Positions 31 to 64,000 of a DNA stretch of 64,000 nt are shown here, in pieces. Origin of the DNA: a virus; the IMG/VR virus record IMGVR_UViG_3300008116_000014, positions 26,659-90,658 of that record; one strand, written 5' to 3'. The position numbers and the translations under genes were made by a program. A model generated the notes under the pieces. That model saw only the letters and a program-made list of their open reading frames with translations, ran no database searches and was not told the origin of the DNA. Each line of letters opens with the position of its first letter. Within the stretch, counting starts at the first letter, position 1.

Positions 31-1416
31 ATGTTTTCACTTTTGGATGGACTATCCAAACCAGAGCAAATAGCAGAAAGATGCAAAGAGATCGGAGCAT
101 CTGCTTGTGCGTTAACAGATCATGGTAACATAGCAGGAACCATCAAGTTTTATACTGCTATGAAAAAAGCTGGACTAAAGCCTATACTTGGATGTGAACT
201 TTACATTTGTAGTCAAAACCCAAAAATCAAAGAAAAAGATAACAAAAAACTAAGTCATTTTCTGGTATTGGCTAAGAATTATTCAGGATGGAGAAATCTT
301 ATCAAGATAGTTTCATCATCCAATAATCCAGAATATTATTATCATAAGCCGAGATTGGATTTACCAACACTAAAAGATCTTCATTCAGGGGATTTGATCG
401 GAATAACTGGTCATCTTGGATCAACACTAGCAGATCAAATACTAGACGGGGATGCTCTTAGAGATGATTGGCAAAATATAGGAGTACAACATATATCTTA
501 TCTTAAGACTATATTTGGTGATCATTTGTTTTTGGAAGCTCAATTAATAGATAAAGATAATCTGCCAATCCAAGAAATCCTCACAAACTGCATCAGAAAA
601 TTGGGACAATTAACCAATACTAAAGTTATATGTACTCCTGATGCTCATTATTGTCGCAAAGAGGATGCTGTTGATCAGCGAGTATTATTGTGCAACAATC
701 TTAAGATTACATTCTCTGATATTAGTCGTAAAATCATAAACGATCAAGATATTCCTATGGGGTGCTTTTTTACATCAGATAATTATCATATTCCATCTCA
801 GGAGGAAATGAAGAACATACACACAGAAGAAGAAATCAATAATACAAATTTTGTGTGTGATTTAGTGGAAGAATATAACATACTAAGTAAACCTAAATTA
901 CCATTATTTAAATGTCCACCAAATTTCTCTCAGGATGAATATTTAAGAGAACTGTGTAGAAACGGATGGAGAGATAAAATAGCAAATGTTGTACCTAAAG
1001 AAGATCAACAACCATACTTGGATCGTATCAAATACGAACTAGAGGTTTTACAGGGTGCTGGGCTGAGTAGTTATTTTTTAATAGTACAAGATATTGTGAA
1101 CTATGTTAAAAGAGAAGGATGGCTTCCGGGACCGGGACGAGGTTGTTTTATACCAGAAACAAGAGTTAAAATGGCTTCTGGTGAATTGATGCCTATCTAT
1201 AATATAGAAATAGGAGATCAAGTAATAGATGCTTTTGGAAATAAACAAAGAGTCTATGATATAATGAGATATGAAATAGATGAAGAAATACTGGAAATAG
1301 AATTAGAAAATGGTAAAATCATAAGATGTACAAAAGATCATAGATTTTTAACACTAAATAGGGGTTGGGTTGAAGCCCAGTATCTATCAGAAAATGATGA
1401 TTTGGCCAAAATATAA
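31..1416 (+). CDS. dnaE: DnaE N-terminal fragment (PHP domain) fused to N-half of split intein
   Basis: This is the N-terminal piece of a bacterial-type DNA polymerase III alpha subunit. Residues 1-371 match the PHP domain and the start of the palm: TDHGN (about 30), GCELY (about 54), HFLVLA (about 76) and PDAHYC (about 205) are PHP metal-site motifs, and the extein ends at LPGPGRG. From Cys372 to 461 the protein is an intein N-half with block A (CFIPETRVKMASGE, then IEIGDQV) and block B (IRCTKDHRF). The frame then stops. The rest of the polymerase follows as separate genes. Splicing in trans with the protein from 2258 would rebuild the conserved GPGRG-SAAG junction. Start ATG 31 leaves out the usual first HxH pair of PHP, which lies just upstream in another frame. 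The assignment is very secure; activity of the PHP site is not known. Confidence 0.95.
   Translation: MFSLLDGLSKPEQIAERCKEIGASACALTDHGNIAGTIKFYTAMKKAGLKPILGCELYICSQNPKIKEKDNKKLSHFLVLAKNYSGWRNLIKIVSSSNNPEYYYHKPRLDLPTLKDLHSGDLIGITGHLGSTLADQILDGDALRDDWQNIGVQHISYLKTIFGDHLFLEAQLIDKDNLPIQEILTNCIRKLGQLTNTKVICTPDAHYCRKEDAVDQRVLLCNNLKITFSDISRKIINDQDIPMGCFFTSDNYHIPSQEEMKNIHTEEEINNTNFVCDLVEEYNILSKPKLPLFKCPPNFSQDEYLRELCRNGWRDKIANVVPKEDQQPYLDRIKYELEVLQGAGLSSYFLIVQDIVNYVKREGWLPGPGRGCFIPETRVKMASGELMPIYNIEIGDQVIDAFGNKQRVYDIMRYEIDEEILEIELENGKIIRCTKDHRFLTLNRGWVEAQYLSENDDLAKI
1144..1413 (+). other. Split intein, N-half (Int-N) in DnaE
   Basis: Ninety codons, starting at the Cys codon TGT at 1144-1146 and ending at the stop. 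The residues show Cys1, block A with GDQV, and block B with the T-x-x-H pattern (CTKDHRF). The gene stops where an endonuclease domain or the intein linker would begin, so this half must work in trans with the C-half at 2258-2362. The length of about 90 residues is usual for natural split-intein N-halves. Confidence 0.92.
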
Positions 1417-1473
1417 TAAGAACCTCTTCCTGGACCACTTTTGGTGTATCCTACTATGAAAGGACAATCTTGT

Positions 1474-2292
1474 ATGGAATATATAGCATTTAAATCTTTA
1501 CAAGACAATAATTTTGAATACAGGGGATTAAGCAATAAACCTATTAAAGACATATGTATAAAATGCAATAAAACTTTTGAATACGCTAAACTTAAGAAAT
1601 TTATTAGGAGCAGAGTAAACATCCCAAAAATATATTGGTGTCAATGTCAGAAATGTTTTTTGCGATATAGAACTATTGATAATTCAGACTGGATAGAAAA
1701 AAATAGGAAAGCACAACTTATAGCGCAAAATAAAGAAGAACAAAAGAAAAAGAACGCGGAGGCAGTATCAAAATCTTGGACAAGAACAAGAAAAAATAAA
1801 GCTTCTGAATATCTTAAAGAAAGATGGGTTAATGATGAGGCTTTTAAAAATAAGGCTACTCTTAATTTAACCAATAATAGAAGATATAATTTTACAAACG
1901 GAATTGCTACTGGGGGTCTTAGAGGATTATATAACGATATATACTATGATAGTGCGCTAGAACTATCTTTTATATTGTGGTGTGAATACAATAGTATGCC
2001 GATTAAAAGATATGATCAAGATTCTATTAAGTATGTAGATGAAAATACTATCGAAAGAGAATATTTTCCTGATTTTATTATCAATAACACAACTATTGTC
2101 GAAATAAAAGGAAAAGGAATTTGGTATAATCGACACTTTGAACGCAATAAATTAAAAATGATAGCAGCAAAGACCAAATTTAATGCAAAGTATTGCATAT
2201 ATTACGACTGGGATGAACAAACAAAATTATTTTATCGAAAGGCTAGAAAATTACATCATGAAAATAAAAAGAAAAACGTCGCTATCATATAA
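1474..2292 (+). CDS. Free-standing homing endonuclease between split intein halves (PD-(D/E)XK type)
   Basis: This gene lies exactly between the two intein halves of the split dnaE. The C-terminal part has a PD-(D/E)XK-like core: YDSALELSF, then YFPDFI, then VEIKGKG, followed by conserved Asn and Lys positions. This resembles Vsr-like or phage-type nicking/cleaving folds. The N-terminal half has a CxxC pair (ICIKCNK) and a second one (CQCQKC), a probable zinc ribbon, and a long basic helical stretch that may bind DNA. I place the start at ATG 1474 because AAAGGA lies nine bases before it; ATG 1456 and TTG 1441 are in frame too. The end overlaps the start of the next dnaE piece. The role, spreading the fractured intein locus by cutting intein-free dnaE, is inferred from position and from the known 'fractured gene' arrangement. 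Confidence 0.8.
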   Translation: MEYIAFKSLQDNNFEYRGLSNKPIKDICIKCNKTFEYAKLKKFIRSRVNIPKIYWCQCQKCFLRYRTIDNSDWIEKNRKAQLIAQNKEEQKKKNAEAVSKSWTRTRKNKASEYLKERWVNDEAFKNKATLNLTNNRRYNFTNGIATGGLRGLYNDIYYDSALELSFILWCEYNSMPIKRYDQDSIKYVDENTIEREYFPDFIINNTTIVEIKGKGIWYNRHFERNKLKMIAAKTKFNAKYCIYYDWDEQTKLFYRKARKLHHENKKKNVAII

Positions 2293-2362
2293 GGGTACTG
2301 TGTGCGATTTGTCTGTAACCAATACAGCATCTTATAATGTTGAAGGGATTGGAGTACACAAT
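2258..2362 (+). other. Split intein, C-half (Int-C) in DnaE
   Basis: Thirty-five codons from ATG 2258 to the Asn codon at 2360-2362. Block F (VCDLSVTNTASYNVEG) and block G (IGVHN) are clear, with the usual penultimate His and terminal Asn. The next codon AGT (2363) is Ser+1, the nucleophile for the second splicing step. Confidence 0.92.
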
Positions 2363-3091
2363 AGTGCGGCGGGGTGTTTGGTATCCTATCTCATCGGCAT
2401 AACTAATATTGATCCTATAAAATATAGTCTGCTTTTTGAAAGATTCTATAATGAGGGTCGTAACACAGCAGACAATATTTCCATGCCAGATATTGATGTA
2501 GATATACCTATCGAAAAGCGAGAAATGGTTATTCAATATATCAAAGACAAATATGGTTCGGACAAAGTTTCTCAAATGGTTACTTTCAATACGATCAAGG
2601 GTAGGGGCGCACTAAAAGACGTATTAAGAGTATATGGTAATATTACATTTGAAGAAATGAATAAGATAACCAAAAATATCCCCGATGAGTCTAAGATTGC
2701 CGATGATCTTCAAGAGATGAAAGAAGAAACTGGCGAAGCATCCATCGTTCGATGGGCTTTGGAAAACGATAATGATAAGCTTAAAGAATGGTGCTTTATT
2801 GATGAAAAAGGACAACTACAAGGCCTCTTGTCAAAAAGGTTTGAACAGGCTATTAGACTAGAGGGCACCAAGTCAAATCAGTCCAAACATGCTGCTGGTA
2901 TTGCTATCAGTAGTGAACCATTAAATGAATTATGTCCTATGGTTTATGATAGTAAGAATGATCAGTTAATAGCAGGAATGGAGATGCAAGACTTGGAAAG
3001 CATAGGAATTATTAAGTTTGATATTCTTGGTGTTGCTCTTCTTGATAAAGTGATGACAATCAGAGACCTTTTAAATGAAGGAGTTCAATAA
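2258..3091 (+). CDS. dnaE: C-half of split intein fused to DnaE catalytic middle fragment
   Basis: Residues 1-35 are an intein C-half ending in V-H-N, and residue 36 is the +1 Ser of the C-extein, continuing SAAGCLVSYLIG. The palm domain follows: PDIDVDI at 77-83 carries Asp80 and Asp82, equivalent to the catalytic Asp401/Asp403 of E. coli DnaE, and IKFDILG near the end carries the third Asp. All three catalytic aspartates thus sit in this fragment. The start ATG 2258 overlaps the endonuclease gene and gives a C-half of normal size. After splicing the product would be about 613 residues (371 + 242). The protein ends at DLLNEGVQ, before the fingers region, which lies in the gene at 3955. GAAGGAG before the stop serves the next gene. 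Confidence 0.93.
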   Translation: MKIKRKTSLSYKGTVCDLSVTNTASYNVEGIGVHNSAAGCLVSYLIGITNIDPIKYSLLFERFYNEGRNTADNISMPDIDVDIPIEKREMVIQYIKDKYGSDKVSQMVTFNTIKGRGALKDVLRVYGNITFEEMNKITKNIPDESKIADDLQEMKEETGEASIVRWALENDNDKLKEWCFIDEKGQLQGLLSKRFEQAIRLEGTKSNQSKHAAGIAISSEPLNELCPMVYDSKNDQLIAGMEMQDLESIGIIKFDILGVALLDKVMTIRDLLNEGVQ

Positions 3092-52002: not shown

Positions 52003-55000
52003 TTAGCGATAAATCCCACCATATATATTAGTGTTTGCGTTTTCTGTAAACCAGTTTGGTCCTTTATACATTTGACCATCTGTTTTGGCCACTTCTGCTA
52101 AGTTATTACCAATTATATCAAATGAAACTGGTTCTAAACTTCTGCTCATTTGTCTAGCTATCATATTAGCTATTAATAAAGCACTGTATCTATCTTTTCT
52201 TAATTTACCCTTTTTACCATTGGGTAGTTTAACTTCTGGAGTATCCCATCGATCTCTAGCATTTGGACCAGTGCTAGTTTGAGTCATGACTATTGTTGTT
52301 AATTCATTTTTGAGTTCTTCAATTTCTAGCACACACTCACTTTCGCTATCGTACACATTATTAATATCGCTATTTAATATATCCTTATTTTCTCTATCCA
52401 ATGCTAGTGCTAGAGTAACAGCATCAAATCGTGGAAATAGTAAAACTTTATCCTCAAGATCTTTACGCAATCCATGATTAGCTTGACTTGTCCAATCTGC
52501 TCGTGCAAACTGAATTAGTTCCAGAATATGCAAACCGCTTTGATCATCAGTATCTTTTGGTTTATTCATATCTATTACTGGCCAGATTAAATTTTCACCT
52601 TCTTCTAGTTTGCCAGGATCGTGTAGTGCTTCTTCGATAGCCACACCACCACCCTGAGCATCTAACCCTATTCTGGCACAAGGAAAAATTTTCATCAAAT
52701 TACGAATTTTTCTAGCACAAAAACTATAGAAATCATATTCATTAACTAATCCTGTTTTTTGACGATCCTTAAAGTTATTACGATTGGTGCTCCAACCATA
52801 AACTATTCTGTTATGATCTTTGTGTAGTTCTATAATAACTATAGTAAAATTATCTTTTTCGCTAGCTGGATCTATACCATAAACATATTGAAGATCAGGA
52901 TTCCCTTTTGTTGATACATCAAATAAAACATTATGACCATTAACAATGATTGGTTTAGATTCATTAGTAACACAACTTTCTATTAGACTACGACGAAAAA
53001 ATCCATCACTATCTTCTGTGAAACAAGCCGCATATTCCATATTATAGATACCAGTATGAATAGTAGCTTTGGCTCTGCTTACCTGTTTATCGTCCATGAA
53101 TCCTTTGGGAATGAGTTCGTATGGAATACGAATAATACTATAGTCTCTCCAGTTAAAACTATCTGGAACCTCACCTTTAAATATTTCCTCTAATTGACGC
53201 TGATCTCCCCTGCTATTAATAATAGCTTTGTATCTTTTCCAATAACTAGCAAAATGCTTGAAACTATAATCTGCTGTACCAGCTATAATAGCTTGATTTC
53301 CCTTTTTAATTTGTACCGCTTCTAATTCAGCATTCCATAATCCAGCCTCTGTCATAGCTGCTTTTTTAGCTTCTTCTTTAACATTTTGAATAGGACTAGC
53401 ACTAACAGCAGCGAAACCTGATACTACCGTTTCATAAATTTCTGGACTAATTGATGCGAACTCGTCTGCGATGATAATATGTGCTCTTAAACCTCTGATC
53501 TTGCTACCATCACCCATAGGAACCGCTATTGTCCAACTTTCGCCCAATCTCATTGTGCATCTGTCCACATCACGACGCGGACCATCATCGTTTCCATTAA
53601 AGATGCTACGGAGAATAGGACTATTTCGCCACAATGTTTCCATATATTCAAATATGATTTTACTCTGTCTAAAAGCTGCACCAACCACCACAATCTTGGT
53701 GCCCGGCACAAAGATACATTTTAATGTGCAATACATAGCCATTAAAAATGAATTATGAGTAACGATATAATCTTTAGTAATATAGGTACTATCATCATTA
53801 TCAACCATTATACAATAGCCACTACCTTTACCAATATGCTCTATATTTGTAATAAATACCTTGTCGTATTTTGATTGACCTTGTTTTGATATTGTGTGTT
53901 TAAGATAATCTAATTTTCTAGGCAAACTAAAAATAGCCTCGTTTGTATACATTGAAATCCTATGACAATCAGCATATTTTTTACCACGAAACATAGATGA
54001 TTTCTTAGTAGATTTACAGTGAATACCTAAAGACCTAGCTAAATCTAAAGTATCTCTATTCAAATCTGATGATACCGTATAATACTCTATAACCGATTCT
54101 CCATTAGAATATCCGTCTGTATCCATCAGTCCTTGTAATAGAGCTATTTTTTGATCATATGAACCATATAAATAATTTAATGGTATGTGTTTATTGTGAC
54201 TGTTTAATTTATGTATACCAATTTGTTCTATAATCTTATAGAATGGTATATTAGTAGTAGTATTAATACCATGAGTAATACCATCTGCCTGGGTGGACAC
54301 ATAATATCCCATGGGTAGTAAACTATTGATTCTATTTACAATATGTTGATCCGTACTACTAAAAGTTATTCTATTTTGTGTCAAACATCCATCCCCCAAA
54401 AGCACACCAACAATATATGGGTGTAATGGAAGATCTTGGGGTTCTTCCTCTATTAAAGGCTTATTAATAGGAAGAGCATACAAATATTCTTTTCCATTGC
54501 TCTTGCCTCCAATTCTATCTCTTTTAAAATCTAGCATTTCTTTAGTCTTCAATACATTCCATTTTTTATTTTTTTGACTATATACTTTCCACTGATGATC
54601 TCCACAACATTCTATGGTTCTACCATCTCTTAGCGTTATTTTATACATATCTAAATTATTTTGTAGATCTGTTTTATTAATAACTGTTGTTAATTTACCG
54701 TCTCCGCCATAAATTTTATCTCCAACTTTAATATTTTTCATTGTGGTCCAGCCATTCGGGGTTCTTAGTTGTTCGTCTGGTCTTAACATTTTACCAAAAC
54801 CACGACTAGCCACAAACATAGGAAATGGTCGAATCCAAAATTCTTGTAATATAGCTATCTGAATAGGATGAAGTTCTATATCGAATAATAGTTTTACTGT
54901 GGTACCAAAATATCGTGGGTCTTTTAATAGTCGTAATAAATGTAAATCAGGATTTTCTATATCTTCTTTGCTTCGGCCAATCATATGATTGGTCGGAATA

Positions 55001-55059
55001 ACTATTTTATCGAGATCTCCCAGATCTAGCCAGGCATTGTCAAATATTAGGTTTGCCAT
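52003..55059 (-). CDS. terL: Large terminase subunit with intein in Walker A
   Basis: A 1,018-residue precursor. Residues 91-436 are an intein; the mature protein has 672 residues. The ATPase domain has GFGK-[intein]-SFLM as Walker A, and IIIADEF as Walker B (Asp532, Glu533). The RNase H-like nuclease domain has YGIDPASEKDNF, IGLDAQGGG and KDRYSALLIA. The enzyme cuts and packages DNA with the portal. Without intein removal Walker A is broken, so packaging depends on splicing. The start overlaps the ERCC4 nuclease gene by 20 bases. Confidence 0.95.
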   Translation of the reverse strand: MANLIFDNAWLDLGDLDKIVIPTNHMIGRSKEDIENPDLHLLRLLKDPRYFGTTVKLLFDIELHPIQIAILQEFWIRPFPMFVASRGFGKMLRPDEQLRTPNGWTTMKNIKVGDKIYGGDGKLTTVINKTDLQNNLDMYKITLRDGRTIECCGDHQWKVYSQKNKKWNVLKTKEMLDFKRDRIGGKSNGKEYLYALPINKPLIEEEPQDLPLHPYIVGVLLGDGCLTQNRITFSSTDQHIVNRINSLLPMGYYVSTQADGITHGINTTTNIPFYKIIEQIGIHKLNSHNKHIPLNYLYGSYDQKIALLQGLMDTDGYSNGESVIEYYTVSSDLNRDTLDLARSLGIHCKSTKKSSMFRGKKYADCHRISMYTNEAIFSLPRKLDYLKHTISKQGQSKYDKVFITNIEHIGKGSGYCIMVDNDDSTYITKDYIVTHNSFLMAMYCTLKCIFVPGTKIVVVGAAFRQSKIIFEYMETLWRNSPILRSIFNGNDDGPRRDVDRCTMRLGESWTIAVPMGDGSKIRGLRAHIIIADEFASISPEIYETVVSGFAAVSASPIQNVKEEAKKAAMTEAGLWNAELEAVQIKKGNQAIIAGTADYSFKHFASYWKRYKAIINSRGDQRQLEEIFKGEVPDSFNWRDYSIIRIPYELIPKGFMDDKQVSRAKATIHTGIYNMEYAACFTEDSDGFFRRSLIESCVTNESKPIIVNGHNVLFDVSTKGNPDLQYVYGIDPASEKDNFTIVIIELHKDHNRIVYGWSTNRNNFKDRQKTGLVNEYDFYSFCARKIRNLMKIFPCARIGLDAQGGGVAIEEALHDPGKLEEGENLIWPVIDMNKPKDTDDQSGLHILELIQFARADWTSQANHGLRKDLEDKVLLFPRFDAVTLALALDRENKDILNSDINNVYDSESECVLEIEELKNELTTIVMTQTSTGPNARDRWDTPEVKLPNGKKGKLRKDRYSALLIANMIARQMSRSLEPVSFDIIGNNLAEVAKTDGQMYKGPNWFTENANTNIYGGIYR
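53752..54789 (-). other. Class 3-type maxi-intein with LAGLIDADG endonuclease in TerL
   Basis: A 346-residue intein between Lys90 and Ser437 of TerL. Its first residue is Met, not Cys, Ser or Ala. It has block A (MLRPDEQLRT ... IKVGDKI), block B with GDHQW (His65, Trp67), block F with Cys326 at the usual Asp place (GYCIMVDNDDSTYIT) and ends in V-T-H-N (Thr344, Asn346). The set Trp-Cys-Thr at these places defines class 3 inteins, which use the block F Cys as nucleophile. A homing endonuclease of the LAGLIDADG type is inserted (YIVGVLLGDGCL and LLQGLMDTDGYS). Confidence 0.88.
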
Positions 55060-57781: not shown

Positions 57782-57809
57782 ATATTATGTTTTGTACACT
57801 TTTTGTCAA
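57782..57809 (-). promoter_or_regulatory. Promoter of the late (minus-strand) operon
   Basis: On the minus strand TTGACA (57804-57809), a 16-base spacer, TAATAT (57782-57787). It lies in the divergent gap between the late operon and the early gene at 57825. A host sigma-70 enzyme should read it, so the sigma-like gene behind it can be made before late promoters are used. Confidence 0.7.
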
Positions 57810-58795: not shown

Positions 58796-58953
58796 CTGCC
58801 ATAATGGCAGACTAGCAAATATCGTGCCAAATGCCAAAATGACAGATTAACTGCCAAAATGGCAGATGGAGCGGGCCAACTGCCAAAATGGCAGATGTAG
58901 CAAATCTTGTGCCAAATATCCTGCCAAATTGGCATAGCAAATATCGTGCCAAA
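58796..58953. repeat. Palindrome cluster A
   Basis: Perfect or near copies of CTGCCA-N3-TGGCAG at 58796-58810, 58851-58865, 58880-58894 and 58921-58934, plus a degenerate one at 58831-58845. The pair 58851/58880 has starts 29 bp apart with a 14-bp GC-rich spacer. The 19-bp element GCAAAT-N4-TGCCAAA occurs three times (58813-58831, 58898-58916, 58935-58953). Confidence 0.9.
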
Positions 58954-58983
58954 GAAAAATATTTTTTCCCTTATTTTTTTTGT

Positions 58984-59011
58984 TTGCAATTGCCGATAAG
59001 GTATGTATAAC
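58984..59011 (+). promoter_or_regulatory. Early promoter P2 (CCGATA type)
   Basis: TTGCAA (58984-58989), 16-base spacer with GCCGATA, TATAAC (59006-59011). A T-rich run stands before it. Confidence 0.75.
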
Positions 59012-59037
59012 AGGAGTAAAGAAAGAGAGAAAGAAAA

Positions 59038-59265
59038 ATGGAAAACTCCACGAACGTCAACAGTTTTATCGGTAGCCTCCCGCGTCTGGAGAAAAAGAAG
59101 GTTTGGAATGTAATCGACAAGGATGGTAACGTGGTTCAAGGTGTGAGTGCCACCGATAATCGCAAGAGTACGGCAGCCGAGTACATTGCCAAAAAGTATC
59201 CGGGCATGTACTTTACGCTTATGTTCTCACACTGTAAGAATGAAAGGGTCGCCGTTAGTCGGTGA
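59038..59265 (+). CDS. Small early protein
   Basis: A 75-residue protein (MENSTNVNSFIGSLPRLE ... NERVAVSR), with a purine-rich AGAGAG before the ATG. KKKVWNVIDKDGNVVQGVSA is a beta hairpin pattern. AAEYIAKKYPGMYFT reads like a small helix-strand unit. It is the first gene of the unit behind P2. The role is unknown. Confidence 0.7.
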   Translation: MENSTNVNSFIGSLPRLEKKKVWNVIDKDGNVVQGVSATDNRKSTAAEYIAKKYPGMYFTLMFSHCKNERVAVSR

Positions 59266-59273
59266 ATAGTAAC

Positions 59274-59423
59274 ATGACAATTCAAGTCCAAAATACGCTT
59301 AGTCGATTGGTCGCCCGTCATGGATATTCGGCTACGTTTGTTCGACACTTGGGCGAAGGTATAAGTCTGTATAGTATCGGCGGTATTATGTATCGTATTC
59401 GTGGTGATGGTAATATCATTTAG
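59274..59423 (+). CDS. Small early protein, 49 residues
   Basis: Starts MTIQVQNTLSRLVARHGYSA and ends in RGDGNII. Nine bases after the previous stop, so translation is probably coupled. Rich in Gly, Arg and Ile; the middle may be a short HTH-like helix pair, but this is only a pattern. Confidence 0.6.
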   Translation: MTIQVQNTLSRLVARHGYSATFVRHLGEGISLYSIGGIMYRIRGDGNII

Positions 59424-59437
59424 TAAAAGGAATAGAA

Positions 59438-59665
59438 ATGAAACTTTCGCAACTCATCAAGACCCTGCAAGCCGCACAAAATCGCCTTGGCGATGTGCCT
59501 GTAAATCTCATGGATGAGGAAGCCGGTAGGTGGCATCCCGTTGCGGAAGTGGTGAAACTCCACCCGTACACTGGGCCGCATGGCTGTGCGAATCGCGACG
59601 AGCCAGCGAACGCCGTCGGGCTTCATAGGCTCGGAGGAAGCCCCAGCGACTTGGTGATTGGCTAA
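59438..59665 (+). CDS. Small early protein, conserved phage type
   Basis: A 75-residue protein with AAAAGGAA before its ATG: MKLSQLIKTLQAAQNRLGDV ... PVNLMDEEAGRWHPVAEVV. The pattern 'LIxxLQxxxxxxGDxPVxxxD' is common in small phage and prophage proteins of unknown role. Third gene of the P2 unit. Confidence 0.7.
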   Translation: MKLSQLIKTLQAAQNRLGDVPVNLMDEEAGRWHPVAEVVKLHPYTGPHGCANRDEPANAVGLHRLGGSPSDLVIG

Positions 59666-59699
59666 CGTACTATCGTGCCGATTGCTTGTTGCATTGCAA

Positions 59700-59771
59700 A
59701 TGCTGAAAGAATTAGGATATTTGCCAGAGTATGATAGACTGATCGAGAAGTTTATTACAGAAAAGGAATAG
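59700..59771 (+). CDS. Very small ORF (23 residues), uncertain
   Basis: MLKELGYLPEYDRLIEKFITEKE between two better genes. A TTG at 59658 in the same frame would extend it to 37 residues. No clear ribosome site lies before the ATG. It may be a remnant or a short helical peptide. Confidence 0.35.
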   Translation: MLKELGYLPEYDRLIEKFITEKE

Positions 59772-59775
59772 TAAC

Positions 59776-60021
59776 ATGATTCTTTCTGGTATGGTTGTGG
59801 ATAGTAAGGTGCCGGTTTATAGTTATGATTGGCTTTGCCAAAAGATGATGGATAGGGGGCGTGTTGCAATCGTGCTACATGATCCACAGGGGGCTATCAT
59901 TCGTGGTATTATAAATGGCATTCGGCCCGAGGATGGTAGCGGACGACACTGGCTTGTTACTATTTGTGATAACAGTGTTATGCCGAGTGTTACTAATGAA
60001 GTATATGTTAGAACAGCATAG
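59776..60021 (+). CDS. Small early protein
   Basis: An 81-residue protein (MILSGMVVDSKVPVYSYDWL ... VTNEVYVRTA) with AAAAGGAA before its ATG. Beta-rich at the middle (VAIVLHDPQGAIIRGIINGI), no known family. Last gene of the P2 unit. Confidence 0.7.
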   Translation: MILSGMVVDSKVPVYSYDWLCQKMMDRGRVAIVLHDPQGAIIRGIINGIRPEDGSGRHWLVTICDNSVMPSVTNEVYVRTA

Positions 60022-60037
60022 TAATATTACTGTAACA

Positions 60038-60207
60038 GCCGATCCTATCGGCTGACATAATGGCAGTAGCCAGCCAAAACGGCAGCCAAGCTGCCAAAAT
60101 GGCAGGCGCCGCGCGCCAACTGCCAAAATGGCAGGCGCTGCAAATTTCATGCCAAAAATAAAATATTTTTTCGGCACACTTTTTGCACGAGCAAATCCTA
60201 TGCCAAA
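60038..60207. repeat. Palindrome cluster B
   Basis: CTGCCAAAATGGCAG at 60091-60105 and 60120-60134 (starts 29 bp apart, 14-bp spacer GCGCCGCGCGCCAA). Degenerate copies at 60052-60066 and 60071-60085, a GCCGAT-N3-ATCGGC hairpin at 60038-60052, and two 19-bp elements (60138-60156, 60189-60207). Confidence 0.9.
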
Positions 60208-60237
60208 AATAATCTTTTTCCCTCTAATTTTTTCCAG

Positions 60238-60265
60238 TTGACATTGCCGATACTAAATGTAGACT
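60238..60265 (+). promoter_or_regulatory. Early promoter P3 (CCGATA type)
   Basis: TTGACA (60238-60243), 16-base spacer with GCCGATA, TAGACT (60260-60265). CTAATTTTTTCCAG lies directly upstream, an UP-element-like tract. Confidence 0.85.
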
Positions 60266-60294
60266 TAGGGAAAGAAAGCAAGAGGAGAAAGAAA

Positions 60295-60444
60295 ATGCAA
60301 AACGATATTCTTATTGTTTCGGATTGCTGCGGAGAAATGATGACCCCGATTTGTGCAGAACAGGGAGTTTGTCCGCGGTGCGGAGAGCATTGTGAGGCTG
60401 AAATAGAGGTTTGGCCAATTCCCGAATGGGGGGTTGATTATTAG
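60295..60444 (+). CDS. Small zinc-ribbon protein
   Basis: A 49-residue protein starting MQNDILIVSDCCGEMM at 60295 with GAGGAG upstream. Cys pairs (CC, C-x6-CPRCGEHC) fit one zinc site. A frame reading from 60238 begins inside the promoter, so the later ATG is used. The role is unknown. Confidence 0.7.
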   Translation: MQNDILIVSDCCGEMMTPICAEQGVCPRCGEHCEAEIEVWPIPEWGVDY

Positions 60445-60486
60445 TCTCTAGTCCCTATAATCCCGGTATCCTTTGGAGAAAAAGTC

Positions 60487-60864
60487 ATGGCAAAGTATAA
60501 GATCATCGAAGATGCAAAGCGTCAAGTCAGAAAGTGTTTCTTGGGGATTGCCGTCCCGATGCTCGTTGAGATTCCCGATGATAGGGTGATTGAGGACGAG
60601 GACGCATACTACGTTTATAGTGTGGACGGTGCGAAGCGACACCTTGTAACCGAAAAGGTTCTCAAGTTCAACCGCAAGAGTCTTTCCCGTATGGGCAAGA
60701 GTATCAAGTCTAAGACCGATCCTCGATATAACGGTGGCGAGGATACTATGATCGTAAAGGTGGGCAAGCCCGGTAGTGCCGAACGCAAGGCAGCACTGGC
60801 CGAACAGTATGCTGCGATTCTTGCCAGCGGCGAGGAAGTTTCCCCCTTTGGGTGGGAGGGATGA
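60487..60864 (+). CDS. Early protein of unknown function
   Basis: A 125-residue protein starting MAKYKIIEDAKRQVRKCF with TTTGGAG before it. It shows a beta-rich middle (VPMLVEIPDDRVIEDEDAYY, VTEKVLKFNRKSL) and a helical C-terminus (SAERKAALAEQYAAILAS). No family recognised. Balanced codon use like the other early genes. Confidence 0.7.
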   Translation: MAKYKIIEDAKRQVRKCFLGIAVPMLVEIPDDRVIEDEDAYYVYSVDGAKRHLVTEKVLKFNRKSLSRMGKSIKSKTDPRYNGGEDTMIVKVGKPGSAERKAALAEQYAAILASGEEVSPFGWEG

Positions 60865-60895
60865 AATAAACGCCACCCCCACTACGGTAGGGGAA

Positions 60896-60939
60896 CTGCC
60901 AAAATGGCAGGCGGCGCGCCCGGCCTGCCAAAATGGCAG
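60896..60939. repeat. Palindrome pair C
   Basis: CTGCCAAAATGGCAG at 60896-60910 and again at 60925-60939. The starts are 29 bp apart and the spacer is GCGGCGCGCCCGGC. Confidence 0.95.
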
Positions 60940-60967
60940 AGGAAAATTTCTCCACTATTTTTTCCGT

Positions 60968-60995
60968 TTGACATTCAAGGTTCGGAGTGTAGAAT
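60968..60995 (+). promoter_or_regulatory. Early promoter P4
   Basis: TTGACA (60968-60973), 16-base spacer, TAGAAT (60990-60995). The spacer here lacks the CCGATA seen in the other early promoters. ACTATTTTTTCCG stands upstream. Confidence 0.8.
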
Positions 60996-61022
60996 ACCGA
61001 TATAAGAAGTAAGGAGAGAACA

Positions 61023-61166
61023 ATGTACGAGATGATGTGGAAGATGTTTCAGAATGGCACGATCACTCAAGAGGGATGGATCACTTTCTGCAAGTGGTAT
61101 ATGTGGGAGTGTGTGATGGTTCAGCCCGAAGTGGTTGAGATTATGGTTCGGATGAAGTATAACTAA
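61023..61166 (+). CDS. Small Met/Trp-rich early protein
   Basis: A 47-residue protein (MYEMMWKMFQNGTITQ ... MVRMKYN) with AAGGAGAG before the ATG. It has seven or more Met and several Trp residues. It could be an amphipathic helix pair. First gene behind P4. No family recognised. Confidence 0.65.
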   Translation: MYEMMWKMFQNGTITQEGWITFCKWYMWECVMVQPEVVEIMVRMKYN

Positions 61167-61183
61167 AGAAAAAGGAAAAGAAG

Positions 61184-61492
61184 ATGACTCACGCCGAAGC
61201 GGTCAAGATGGTACAGGGTAAGCGTAATCGTAGTAATCGTAAGATTGGTAATAATACTTGGGCTTATATTCTGCCCAATAATAGTGTGGTGATCGAACTA
61301 CATAGTACGCCCGTTGTAACTATTCATGAGGATGGCACCTATACCCTTCGTTCGGGGGGATGGACAACCAGCACCACAAAGGATAGAATTAACAAGTATA
61401 GTCCCGTCAAGGTGTACCAGCGTAAGTTTGAATGGTTCGTTCGGTTGAATGGTAAGGATTATCCTTTCATGGAAGGTATGGTGGTTTCATGA
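61184..61492 (+). CDS. Conserved small early protein
   Basis: A 102-residue protein (MTHAEAVKMVQGKRNRSNRK ... PFMEGMVVS) with AAAAGGAAAAG upstream. The pattern NNTWAYILPNNSVVIELHST, VTIHEDGTYTLRSGGWTT and RINKYSP is common among small phage proteins of unknown role. Its stop overlaps the next start (ATGA). Confidence 0.75.
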   Translation: MTHAEAVKMVQGKRNRSNRKIGNNTWAYILPNNSVVIELHSTPVVTIHEDGTYTLRSGGWTTSTTKDRINKYSPVKVYQRKFEWFVRLNGKDYPFMEGMVVS

Positions 61493-61650
61493 TTCCTGTT
61501 TATCTTTTTTGTATGCTTATGTTTGTAATTTTTGCCGGATTTGTTATGGCCATTTTAGGTATCGCAGAAGATGCCTATAATGAGCGGCAAAAGTTTACAA
61601 AGATTGATTATGAAAGCGAAGTTCAAAAATTGCTGAAAGAAAAATTCTAA
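61489..61650 (+). CDS. Small membrane protein, 53 residues
   Basis: Starts MIPVYLFCMLMFVIFAGF, an N-terminal transmembrane helix of about 24 residues, followed by a charged helical tail (EDAYNERQKFTKIDYESEVQ). ATG overlaps the stop of the preceding gene. Probably an inner-membrane protein with the tail in the cytoplasm. Confidence 0.65.
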   Translation: MIPVYLFCMLMFVIFAGFVMAILGIAEDAYNERQKFTKIDYESEVQKLLKEKF

Positions 61651-61665
61651 AGAAAGGGGCCAAGG

Positions 61666-61767
61666 ATGGTCGATAATAACTGGGTACTAATGGGTGTGGG
61701 ATTTATTGTTGGTGTTGTTTGTGTTTATAGTGTTTGTGATCTTATTTTTCCAGTAAGGAAAGAATAA
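61666..61767 (+). CDS. Tiny membrane protein, 33 residues
   Basis: MVDNNWVLMGVGFIVGVVCV is followed by YSVCDLIFPVRKE. It is one transmembrane helix with a short charged end. GGGG and AAGG lie just upstream. Its TAA shares one base with the next ATG. Confidence 0.6.
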   Translation: MVDNNWVLMGVGFIVGVVCVYSVCDLIFPVRKE

Positions 61768-61850
61768 TGAGTCTTACTATTGGCGACAAGGTTTTACTTA
61801 GTGTTTCTTTCATTTTTGGTTGCGTTGTTGCTTGGGTTGTAAATATGTAA
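61767..61850 (+). CDS. Tiny membrane protein, 27 residues
   Basis: MSLTIGDKVLLSVSFIFGCV continues as VAWVVNM. One hydrophobic helix. AAGGAAAG stands before the ATG inside the preceding gene. It forms with the two genes before it a set of three small membrane proteins. Confidence 0.55.
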   Translation: MSLTIGDKVLLSVSFIFGCVVAWVVNM

Positions 61851-61861
61851 CAAAAGGCTGC

Positions 61862-61926
61862 CTGCCAAAATGGCAGGGGCCGCGGCCAATCTGCCAAAAT
61901 GGCAGGCTAGCAAATAGTGTGCCAAA
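61862..61926. repeat. Palindrome pair D
   Basis: CTGCCAAAATGGCAG at 61862-61876 and 61891-61905, starts 29 bp apart, spacer GGGCCGCGGCCAAT. A 19-bp element follows at 61908-61926 (TAGCAAATAGTGTGCCAAA). Confidence 0.95.
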
Positions 61927-61957
61927 GAAATTCTTTTTTTCGACTAATTTTTTCTAG

Positions 61958-61985
61958 TTGACAAACCGATAACGTATGGTAGAAC
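61958..61985 (+). promoter_or_regulatory. Early promoter P5 (CCGATA type)
   Basis: TTGACA (61958-61963), 16-base spacer with ACCGATA, TAGAAC (61980-61985). CTAATTTTTTCTAG lies directly before it. Confidence 0.85.
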
Positions 61986-62010
61986 AGTAGCATACAAGGG
62001 AGAAAAAACC

Positions 62011-62184
62011 ATGCTGAAAGATTTTGATAGCGTGAACATGATTCTTGCTTCTATGCGTGATGAGGGTATGATCGAGCCTATCGACGATCCTGCTATGGCT
62101 GTTGACTTTTGGGATTGGGCCGATATCATCGGCATTGTGGACGAAGTTGTTCCTAGTGAGCCCTTTTGGGCAAACGCTAACTGA
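62011..62184 (+). CDS. Small acidic early protein
   Basis: A 57-residue protein (MLKDFDSVNMILASMRDEGM ... EPFWANAN) with AAGGGAG before the ATG. Acidic, with Trp-rich FWDWADIIGIVDE. First gene behind P5. Not recognised. Confidence 0.65.
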   Translation: MLKDFDSVNMILASMRDEGMIEPIDDPAMAVDFWDWADIIGIVDEVVPSEPFWANAN

Positions 62185-62195
62185 AAGGAAAAGTC

Positions 62196-62408
62196 ATGAG
62201 TCACCCCGATTACCTTTATGACGATTATGATGATTTCCACGAGGATGATATGGAACTGTACGATCACGAGGATGAATTTGATGATTTTGAGGACGATGAT
62301 AGTATGGATGGCGATGCTGAATCTTCGTTCGGCTCTTGTGGATGGGGTGTTGACGAGTACTACAATAGCGACACGCCAATGTATGATGATTACTATGGCG
62401 GAGAATAA
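62196..62408 (+). CDS. Highly acidic protein without Lys or Arg
   Basis: A 70-residue protein (MSHPDYLYDDYDDFHEDDME ... YDDYYGGE), with GAAAGGAAAAG before its ATG. About 40% of residues are Asp or Glu, many Tyr, three His, no Lys or Arg. Such composition is known from DNA-mimic proteins of phages (Ocr type), which block host DNA-binding enzymes. The frame is supported by the ribosome site and the place in the P5 unit; a DNA-mimic role is inference. The other overlapping frame (62218 on) lacks a ribosome site. Confidence 0.7.
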   Translation: MSHPDYLYDDYDDFHEDDMELYDHEDEFDDFEDDDSMDGDAESSFGSCGWGVDEYYNSDTPMYDDYYGGE

Positions 62409-62424
62409 CTAAAGACCATAAGTC

Positions 62425-62467
62425 CTGCCAAAATGGCAGGCCGGCCGCGAAAACTGCCAAATTGGCA
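62425..62467. repeat. Palindrome pair E
   Basis: CTGCCAAAATGGCAG at 62425-62439 and CTGCCAAATTGGCA at 62454-62467, starts 29 bp apart, spacer GCCGGCCGCGAAAA. The second copy is only 14 bases before the next -35 box. Confidence 0.93.
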
Positions 62468-62481
62468 TAATGTTTTACCTC

Positions 62482-62509
62482 TTGACAAGCCGATATTCTA
62501 CTGTAGAAT
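62482..62509 (+). promoter_or_regulatory. Early promoter P6 (CCGATA type)
   Basis: TTGACA (62482-62487), 16-base spacer with GCCGATA, TAGAAT (62504-62509). Confidence 0.85.
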
Positions 62510-62534
62510 CAGAACATAACCCGAGGAAAAGAAA

Positions 62535-62780
62535 ATGACCTACAACGGCTTCAAGAATTATGAGACTTGGAATGTGGTTCTTTGGATCAATAATGATGAG
62601 GGTTTGTATAATCTTGCTAGACAGTGTTCCTCATACGATGAATTTATTGATTGTATGAAAGATTTGGGCGGTGATATTGGCTACGAAACCCCGGACAATG
62701 TTGCGTGGAATGATAGTGGTATCGACCGCGATGCTATCAATGCGGATTGGGTTCAAGATTTTGTTGAAGATGCCGCTTGA
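62535..62780 (+). CDS. Conserved phage protein (NYETWNV family)
   Basis: An 81-residue protein starting MTYNGFKNYETWNVVLWINN with GAGGAAAAG upstream. The segment 'GxKNYETWNVxLWINNDEGLY' is widespread in small phage proteins. The C-terminal part is acidic. Function unknown. The stop codon lies inside the next -35 box. Confidence 0.8.
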   Translation: MTYNGFKNYETWNVVLWINNDEGLYNLARQCSSYDEFIDCMKDLGGDIGYETPDNVAWNDSGIDRDAINADWVQDFVEDAA

Positions 62781-62805
62781 CAATTGCCGATCTATACTGT
62801 AGACT
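62777..62805 (+). promoter_or_regulatory. Early promoter P7 (CCGATA type)
   Basis: TTGACA (62777-62782) overlapping the stop of the preceding gene, 17-base spacer with GCCGAT, TAGACT (62800-62805). No palindrome pair before this one. Confidence 0.8.
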
Positions 62806-62856
62806 TTAGGCATCGGTCGATCATAGAGTATAATCAGAGAAACGAAAGGAACAAAA

Positions 62857-63090
62857 ATGCTTGGCGGATATAGTAAACAGTTTAAATTTGACAATGGCTA
62901 CGGTGCTAGCGTTGTTTGTAATAGCATGTCCTATGGTAATAGTGATGGACTTTTTGAGGTTGCCGTTACTAAGGGTGACGATCTGTGTTATACAACGCCC
63001 GTTACTAACGATGTGGAGGGATTTCTTGATTTTGCTGGAGTTGCTGAGATTCTGGAGAAGATTAAGAAACTTCCTAAAGTTGAGGCTTGA
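62857..63090 (+). CDS. Small early protein
   Basis: A 77-residue protein (MLGGYSKQFKFDNGYGASVV ... KKLPKVEA) with GAAAGGAA before the ATG. Beta-rich N-terminus (GASVVCNSMSYGNSDGLFEV) and helical end (VAEILEKIKKLP). The stop overlaps the next -35 box. Not recognised, but the layout of a small regulator or enzyme inhibitor fits. Confidence 0.7.
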   Translation: MLGGYSKQFKFDNGYGASVVCNSMSYGNSDGLFEVAVTKGDDLCYTTPVTNDVEGFLDFAGVAEILEKIKKLPKVEA

Positions 63091-63115
63091 CAAGTGCCGA
63101 TAAGAGATGTATGAT
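63087..63115 (+). promoter_or_regulatory. Early promoter P8 (CCGATA type)
   Basis: TTGACA (63087-63092) overlapping the stop before it, 17-base spacer with GCCGATA, TATGAT (63110-63115). No palindrome pair before it. Confidence 0.8.
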
Positions 63116-63154
63116 TGGTGCATTGAGTGAATCTTCTATACGAAAGGTTTGATT

Positions 63155-63562
63155 ATGAACGATACGATGCTGTTTGCTTCTCTGTTTGCTGGTGTTGCTG
63201 GTTTGCTGGTTGGTTTTGCCGCTTTTCATATCTACTCCGGCTTGCGTGATAATCTGAGCAATGCTAGGGTTGGTAAGGTCTATAATTTTGAGTATCTTCA
63301 GCCCGTTACTGGAAAGCCCGAGCGTTTCATGGCAAAGGTGCTGGAAGTGCATCGTTTTTCGGAAGATTACATTGCACGACTCAATGCTAAGAGCAACTAT
63401 CGTCGATATGATCCGATGTTCCAGCGTAGTAAGCATCTTATTACCGCACAGACTTGTGATGGTAAGATTCGCAACTTCTATGCGGAGCGTACCCGTAACG
63501 TGCGTCGTCCACTGCTGGGTGGCGTGATGTTCAAGACCGGCTTGGCCAGCCTCCTCTTTTGA
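63155..63562 (+). CDS. Membrane-anchored early protein
   Basis: A 135-residue protein. The start at ATG 63155 has GAAAGG eight bases upstream. An N-terminal helix (LFASLFAGVAGLLVGFAAFH, about 6-25) looks like a membrane anchor. The rest is basic (KVLEVHRFSEDYIARLNAKS, RTRNVRRPLLGG) and probably cytoplasmic. Not recognised. Followed by a hairpin. Confidence 0.65.
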   Translation: MNDTMLFASLFAGVAGLLVGFAAFHIYSGLRDNLSNARVGKVYNFEYLQPVTGKPERFMAKVLEVHRFSEDYIARLNAKSNYRRYDPMFQRSKHLITAQTCDGKIRNFYAERTRNVRRPLLGGVMFKTGLASLLF

Positions 63563-63575
63563 GGGGGTTCTGGCC
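63544..63575 (+). terminator. Strong hairpin at end of the P8 unit
   Basis: GGCCAG (63544-63549) with CTGGCC (63570-63575) and CCTCCTC with GAGGGGG around a TTTTG loop. It covers the stop codon of the preceding gene. No T run follows directly, so it may work together with palindrome pair F. Confidence 0.6.
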
Positions 63576-63619
63576 CTGCCATCTTGGCAGCCGGGCCGCA
63601 CGACCTGCCAAATTGGCAG
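63576..63619. repeat. Palindrome pair F
   Basis: CTGCCATCTTGGCAG at 63576-63590 and CTGCCAAATTGGCAG at 63605-63619, starts 29 bp apart, spacer CCGGGCCGCACGAC. Followed by a T run and promoter P9. Confidence 0.95.
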
Positions 63620-63643: not shown

Positions 63644-63671
63644 TTGACAAACCGATACTAGAGTGTAGAAT
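63644..63671 (+). promoter_or_regulatory. Promoter P9 (CCGATA type) for the structured RNA
   Basis: TTGACA (63644-63649), 16-base spacer with ACCGATA, TAGAAT (63666-63671). Transcription should begin near 63679. No ribosome site or ORF follows. Confidence 0.85.
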
Positions 63672-63678
63672 GAAAGAG

Positions 63679-64000
63679 TAAGACAAAACAAAACGTGATG
63701 CTGGCAAAGTAGAGGCTACAGCCTAGTTGTCGGGCAAAACCAACCCTCGCCTTTAGGGTAAAGAGACAACCATCACAAGAACTTTCGTGGGTCCATGCCT
63801 TGGACTAGATAGGGATAAGCCATTATGAAAGCCTCTGCCTGAAAGATTGGTGTGGTTGACAGCGGGCTTATACGCTGTATAGTAATGCCTGTCTATGGGG
63901 GATAGCGTCCTCACCACGACCAATACAACTTTATGGGTGACGGTTTACCGTATGACGAGGCAAAGCACAACAGAGCGAAGGTAACTTCCATGTGGCCTCC
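63679..64000 (+). ncRNA. Candidate large structured non-coding RNA (truncated by window end)
   Basis: More than 320 bases without a convincing ORF follow a strong promoter. Clear pairings include GTGATG (63695-63700) with CATCAC (63771-63776); GTTGTC (63726-63731) with GACAAC (63765-63770); the hairpins AGGC/GCCT (63713-63724), ACCCT/AGGGT (63743-63759) and GTCCA/TGGAC (63791-63805); ATTGGT-GTGGT (63846-63856) with ACCAC-G-ACCAAT (63913-63924) enclosing ACAGCG/CGCTGT (63859-63878) and CTAT/ATAG (63893-63905); and ACGG/CCGT (63940-63951). It forms a multibranch fold. It could be of the GOLLD/ROOL kind of phage ornate RNAs or something new. I do not recognise RNase P RNA, tmRNA, or group I or II intron cores. 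Confidence 0.65.

Follow-up and report, generated by a model that had tools for sequence, protein, structure and literature searches.

The early gene region at the right end of a phage contig (IMG/VR record IMGVR_UViG_3300008116_000014) is punctuated by six pairs of the 15-bp palindrome CTGCCA-N3-TGGCAG, and these pairs, judging from their sequence and from that of related phages, are probably bipartite DNA operators through which a type-specific regulator acts on early transcription units. The window analysed is the final 64 kb (64,000 bp) of this 90,658-bp contig of an uncultured phage. Structural genes, with the portal gene (identified by a phrog match) and the terminase gene among them, run leftward from ~57.7 kb, and 58-63.7 kb is occupied by small rightward genes, here termed "early" from their position and promoters; a near-consensus sigma70 promoter heads most of these units. 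The pairs lie at 58851-63619, where the initial annotation had placed them, and the two starts of each pair are precisely 29 bp apart. The sites are:

58796..58810, + strand: single exact palindrome CTGCCATAATGGCAG, outlier of the first cluster
58851..58894, + strand: putative operator pair 1 (58851, 58880), spacer ATGGAGCGGGCCAA
58921..58935, + strand: degenerate extra copy CTGCCAAATTGGCAT, 41 bp past 58880
60052..60085, + strand: two degenerate copies (60052, 60071) adjoining pair 2
60091..60134, + strand: putative operator pair 2 (60091, 60120), spacer GCGCCGCGCGCCAA
60896..60939, + strand: putative operator pair 3 (60896, 60925), spacer GCGGCGCGCCCGGC
61862..61905, + strand: putative operator pair 4 (61862, 61891), spacer GGGCCGCGGCCAAT, starting ~10 bp past the upstream stop codon
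62425..62468, + strand: putative operator pair 5 (62425 and the degenerate 62454), spacer GCCGGCCGCGAAAA
63576..63619, + strand: putative operator pair 6 (63576, 63605), spacer CCGGGCCGCACGAC

The copy previously described as shortened is the one at 62454-62468 (CTGCCAAATTGGCAT), and the copy at 63576 has the central bases TCT. Five further copies that had escaped the initial annotation flank pairs 1 and 2 (58796, which is exact, 58831, 58921, 60052 and 60071); they are mostly degenerate and lie at distances of 19, 20, 35 and 41 bp. Matches to the palindrome with at most two mismatches number 17 inside 58796-63619 and one elsewhere in the window, compared with 0.92 expected from shuffled sequences, none of which (0/100) reached 18. 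The copies are concentrated in the early region, and the whole 90,658-bp record has no exact copy outside it.

The 29-bp register is general among related viral loci. Across 75 such loci, 292 exact copies gave 280 neighbour matches at 29 bp; the runner-up distance, 41 bp, accounted for 12. Because these loci had been seeded by the motif itself, the count was repeated in 80 loci picked by a D5-like gene alone (a set that overlaps the first in part), where 93 of the 103 exact copies are partnered at 29 bp and CTGCCA is the only perfect same-stem tandem palindrome at that distance. When viral contigs were scanned with any spacer from 0 to 30 bp allowed, most matches spanned 44 bp, which corresponds to the 29-bp register; one 28-bp pair was seen (locus L219). 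The register is therefore not a local feature of this contig. Among the matches listed in bacterial genomes (88 stretches), none has the 29-bp register, and the phage host was not identified. Same-stem tandem palindromes of bacteria were considered as relatives, but their spacings differ and they seem unrelated. CTGCCA-N3-TGGCAG tandems recur at 42 bp in Longimicrobiales (L126, L146, L152, L177 (OY282361.1) and other Gemmatimonadota metagenome-assembled genomes), probably as an unrelated bacterial repeat family. Isolated phages and plasmids searched for the element yielded nothing beyond short chance matches, and a literature search on the motif yielded nothing relevant.

The anatomy of the pair was derived from 215 non-redundant pairs. 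In a ratio of 213:9 (99:4 and 114:5 in promoter-oriented pairs), the AAA at the palindrome centre is on the same strand as the sigma70 promoter downstream, so that many copies share one orientation relative to transcription. The 14-bp spacers are variable, as first described, but their richness in GC is more specific: positions 4-10 are 85-100% G/C versus 39-46% in the flanks, the dyad step is pyrimidine-purine (YR) in 85% and purine-pyrimidine (RY) in none, and there is no self-complementarity beyond that due to composition. The earlier statement that only the central bases vary holds for stem positions 3, 5, 11 and 13, which are essentially invariant, but not for positions 4/12 and 6/10 or the last base of copy 2, which vary in the wider set. 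Tolerance of substitutions is position-specific and symmetric between half-sites (C4T/G12A and A6G/T10C are allowed), a pattern that would fit a dimer half-site cTGyCr. The last base of copy 2 is unconstrained, and constraint is stronger at the inner edges than at the outer edge of that copy. Compensated double changes within the stem number 6, versus ~180 single changes.

The pairs are also ordered with respect to the early promoters, of which the window contains the following:

58984..59011, + strand: sigma70-like early promoter TTGCAATTGCCGATAAGGTATGTATAAC, placed by eye
60238..60265, + strand: sigma70-like early promoter TTGACA-16-TAGACT
60968..60995, + strand: sigma70-like early promoter TTGACA-16-TAGAAT
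61958..61985, + strand: sigma70-like early promoter TTGACAAACCGATAACGTATGGTAGAAC, placed by eye
62482..62509, + strand: sigma70-like early promoter TTGACA-16-TAGAAT
63644..63671, + strand: sigma70-like early promoter, -35 box 24 bp past pair 6

These promoters have an A/T-rich upstream (UP-like) region, TTGACA and a tendency to a TG-extended -10 box. The distance from the end of the pair to the -35 box is 23-25 bp in 56 of the 110 cassettes without a sigma54-like element (described below), and the intervening sequence is dissimilar (45% identity) and A/T-rich; since the pairs of the window range from 13 to ~103 bp, this spacing is the prevailing pattern in the group and no fixed law. The distance from the upstream stop codon to the pair is broad (-10 to 214 bp, median 28 bp).

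The phages related to this one form an uncultured family of large phages in which the pair (type A) precedes most early units; close relatives possess a different element (type B) at the same places. Only 23 of the 80 gene-seeded loci contain the CTGCCA palindrome, and the others, where the stored DNA extends far enough into the early region, generally contain CGTAA-N4-TTACG sites. The type B element (L285, L281, L218, L234, L238 and others) comprises four such sites in a 15/38/15 layout with a G/C-only core: a doublet of sites 15 bp apart, then 24 bp with 97-100% G/C at the middle positions, then another doublet at a distance of 53 bp from the first. The two types occur together in none of 162 loci (136 A, 26 B), some of which overlap, so that they do not represent independent genomes. 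Early genes are largely syntenic across types, and either type occupies equivalent junctions. Core genes do not sort by type: structural genes are as alike between types as within them (capsid identity 0.90 for AA, 0.87 for BB and 0.88 for AB), and the weakly resolved tree of the D5-like gene calls for 12 type changes by parsimony, close to the shuffled mean of 14.6. This wholesale replacement at syntenic sites is the main argument for a trans-acting cognate binder, and it points to a type-specific DNA-binding regulator whose specificity may have been swapped wholesale.

Each pair would then be one operator, bound by a sequence-specific DNA-binding protein, probably with one dimer on each palindrome and the two dimers in register across the G/C-only, YR-centred core. 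The binding site would lie after the end of one early unit and ahead of the sigma70 promoter of the following one, and the regulator would control some ~6-20 early units per genome together. Because the early promoters look strong unaided, repression, shut-off or a roadblock is favoured over activation with moderate confidence; the regulator would most likely be a repressor, an early shut-off factor or a roadblock, and neighbouring units might also be insulated from one another. The initial annotation had offered a double operator as one option and had argued from the register that both sites are read together; the same six lines speak for both proposals, namely the register, the constrained inner edges, the YR-centred G/C core, the distance to the -35 box, the scarcity of compensation and the replacement of one type by the other. 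The sites, their register, their directional bias, their position relative to promoters, the few compensatory changes and the wholesale type replacement are observed. Protein binding, encoding by the phage and repression or blocking over activation are what we infer, and the regulator could be host-encoded.

The stoperators of Cluster A mycobacteriophages offer a working analogy: there are many sites per genome, aligned with transcription, and related phages differ in consensus and in cognate repressors (PMC6550527). The stoperator is a single asymmetric site bound by a monomer, in temperate phages (PMC9283540). Stoperator-bound repressor blocks elongation, and Cluster A phages have an integrase or parABS. 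The present sites resemble stoperators in being many, in one orientation and group-specific, but differ in being paired 15-bp palindromes with a 29-bp register and a G/C core, located at early-unit junctions, so that membership in the stoperator class fails on the form of the site. Neither a repressor nor, in 15 partial records, a tyrosine integrase (PF00589) was found here, a search that did not extend to serine integrase or parABS.

Several observations weigh against an operator function. The central AAA has a strong strand bias, for which a site read purely as symmetric DNA would have no use. The pair is situated upstream of the core promoter, a position from which occlusion is not expected to repress. 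The records compared are fragments from uncultured phages. Parsimony on the tree of the D5-like gene counts 12 type changes (mean of shuffles 14.6), but this tree is weakly resolved and its starred branches force one change only, which leaves the number of switches uncertain. No cognate regulator was found, and no HTH_3 protein scored above the cut-off in 15 records; D5-like, sigma-like and small helix-turn-helix proteins, considered as the binder, track operator type poorly or weakly.

Gene presence or absence by operator type gave only small, patchy candidates. The family that best separates the operator types, among 140 shared families, is an early protein of the window (area under the curve 0.93, versus a median of 0.53):

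63149..63562, + strand: 137-aa early protein with an N-terminal transmembrane (TM) helix and an SH3/WYL-like domain, without a helix-turn-helix

As this protein was picked as the best of 140, its tracking of type may reflect linkage to the operator region, and in a larger tree it follows operator type imperfectly. AlphaFold predicts a long N-terminal helix (TM by sequence) and a small barrel (pLDDT 82), for which the best PDB matches are SAWADEE, Plus3 and WYL domains (PafBC, BrxR) at non-significant E values of 0.02-0.09. The predicted resemblance to WYL regulators is suggestive only, and the protein is a lead only as regulator of the operators.

Because the elements fold well and their loop is strand-biased, the main rival to the operator interpretation is that they act as tandem RNA hairpins at the 3' ends of the early transcripts, stopping, protecting or processing the mRNA, which we regard as rather unlikely. 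Consistent with such hairpins, the pair is often close behind a stop codon (the median of 28 bp given above), a terminator-like hairpin stands between stop and pair in only 5 of 207 junctions, AAA would be a loop with the 213:9 strand bias, and type A elements fold better than shuffled sequences (mean z ~-2.9 sense, -3.3 antisense), as do type B elements (z ~-2.5); folding energy does not discriminate, however, because palindromic repeats fold well anyway. A T-run follows no more than 39 of 207 pairs (in the window it is confined to copies of the last two pairs), which disfavours intrinsic terminators, and a stem-loop with a direct T-run was rejected on the same count as a general description of the pairs. 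The near absence of compensatory changes and the position-specific pattern of those tolerated also speak against an RNA stem, as does the fact that transitions mostly give G-U pairing on the antisense strand (87 vs 27); RNA covariation is unsupported by the stem changes. Nor would fixed spacing and a tight link to the downstream promoter be expected of a 3' end element. Searches for an Rfam or tRNA identity gave no match at the gathering threshold and only chance-level matches below it.

Sites of recombination or of mobile cassettes (PeSL-like, REP/BIME-like or recombinase sites) at which early gene cassettes are shuffled would account for small gene cassettes separated by sites with differing cores and constant flanks, but this explanation is very improbable: early gene order is largely conserved among relatives, even across operator types, the next promoter follows at a tightly kept distance, the 29-bp register is in no listed bacterial genome match, and the 15 records yielded no tyrosine integrase. 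T4-type phages reportedly possess mobile regulatory cassettes (PeSL), in which a palindrome capable of forming a stem-loop and an early promoter lie between small early genes; the present elements differ from these in their fixed 29-bp pair, G/C core, syntenic positions and type switching. Since no two spacers are alike and the sites occupy syntenic positions, a mobile repeat is unlikely. Of the three options of the initial annotation, the double operator has support, intrinsic terminators and a mobile repeat are disfavoured, and an RNA role is less probable than the operator.

Many pairs are adjoined, usually at 4-6 bp, by a second element, TTTGGCAC-N5-TTTGCT, which has exactly one spacing and matches the -24/-12 consensus of sigma54 promoters, including the GG-N10-GC spacing; this consensus is well established. 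The window contains six, all on the minus strand:

58814..58830, - strand: sigma54-like element TTGGCACGATATTTGCT, antisense to the early genes
58899..58915, - strand: sigma54-like element TTGGCACAAGATTTGCT
58936..58952, - strand: sigma54-like element TTGGCACGATATTTGCT
60139..60155, - strand: sigma54-like element TTGGCATGAAATTTGCA
60190..60206, - strand: sigma54-like element TTGGCATAGGATTTGCT
61909..61925, - strand: sigma54-like element TTGGCACACTATTTGCT

Type A elements as a whole are 78 reverse and 7 forward, and the exact element is absent from about two-thirds of type A pairs. The element is kept in type B relatives (67, vs at most 10 at other gaps), so that its reader is probably distinct from the binder of the operator; some type B copies face one another. 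Being mostly antisense, it is unlikely to be an early promoter, and it may be a roadblock, a decoy or an antisense promoter.

The presence of this element suggests a further explanation, that the pairs serve as enhancers, bound upstream by a sigma54 activator acting with the neighbouring -24/-12 elements. The consensus match, the single spacing and the retention in type B agree with it, and tandem palindromes about three helical turns apart recall the sites of NtrC-class activators. Sigma54 promoters face the gene that they regulate, however, and their enhancers lie roughly 80-200 bp upstream, whereas here the orientation is wrong (78:7 pointing away from early genes), the distance of 4-6 bp is too near for looping, about two-thirds of type A pairs lack the exact element, and the early sigma70 promoters are near-consensus. 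A phage-encoded sigma54 activator was sought and none was found (PF00158, 25 phage records), and any activator would have to be the host's. This makes an enhancer function improbable, and a bipartite operator remains the preferred interpretation of the pairs.

Outside the operator-bearing units, the leftward structural genes have a promoter of their own:

57782..57809, - strand: sigma70-like promoter of the leftward structural-gene operon, without an operator pair

This operon is headed by a sigma70-region-2-like phage protein (57027-57632, - strand) that is conserved across the phage group. The terminase (52003-55059) and a DnaE-like polymerase (31-3091) are apparently interrupted by inteins or homing endonuclease-like insertions; both have only distant relatives, and a search for a related isolate by the portal found none. 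Downstream of the promoter at 63644, more than 300 nt (63690-64000) lack a convincing open reading frame, a feature conserved in many relatives (e.g. L208, L201, L207). Rfam and tRNA searches of this stretch gave no match; it is a candidate structured phage RNA, cut by the end of the contig.

Immunity groups, known from temperate phages, are recognised by mutually exclusive operator types in relatives that are otherwise interleaved. It is conceivable, though doubtful, that these large, apparently lytic phages use immunity-group-like operator networks, in which some ~6-20 early units would each be guarded by a bipartite G/C-core operator, often with an antisense sigma54-type element, and in which specificity would be replaced wholesale, repeatedly, between close relatives by a new kind of phage-encoded regulator, possibly the membrane-anchored WYL-like early protein. 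With such a signature in large phages for which no tyrosine integrase was detected, early-gene control and superinfection exclusion would become testable there, and what a sigma54-type element does in the early region of a phage would become a concrete question. Two unrelated operator types at orthologous junctions constitute an unusually clean natural experiment.

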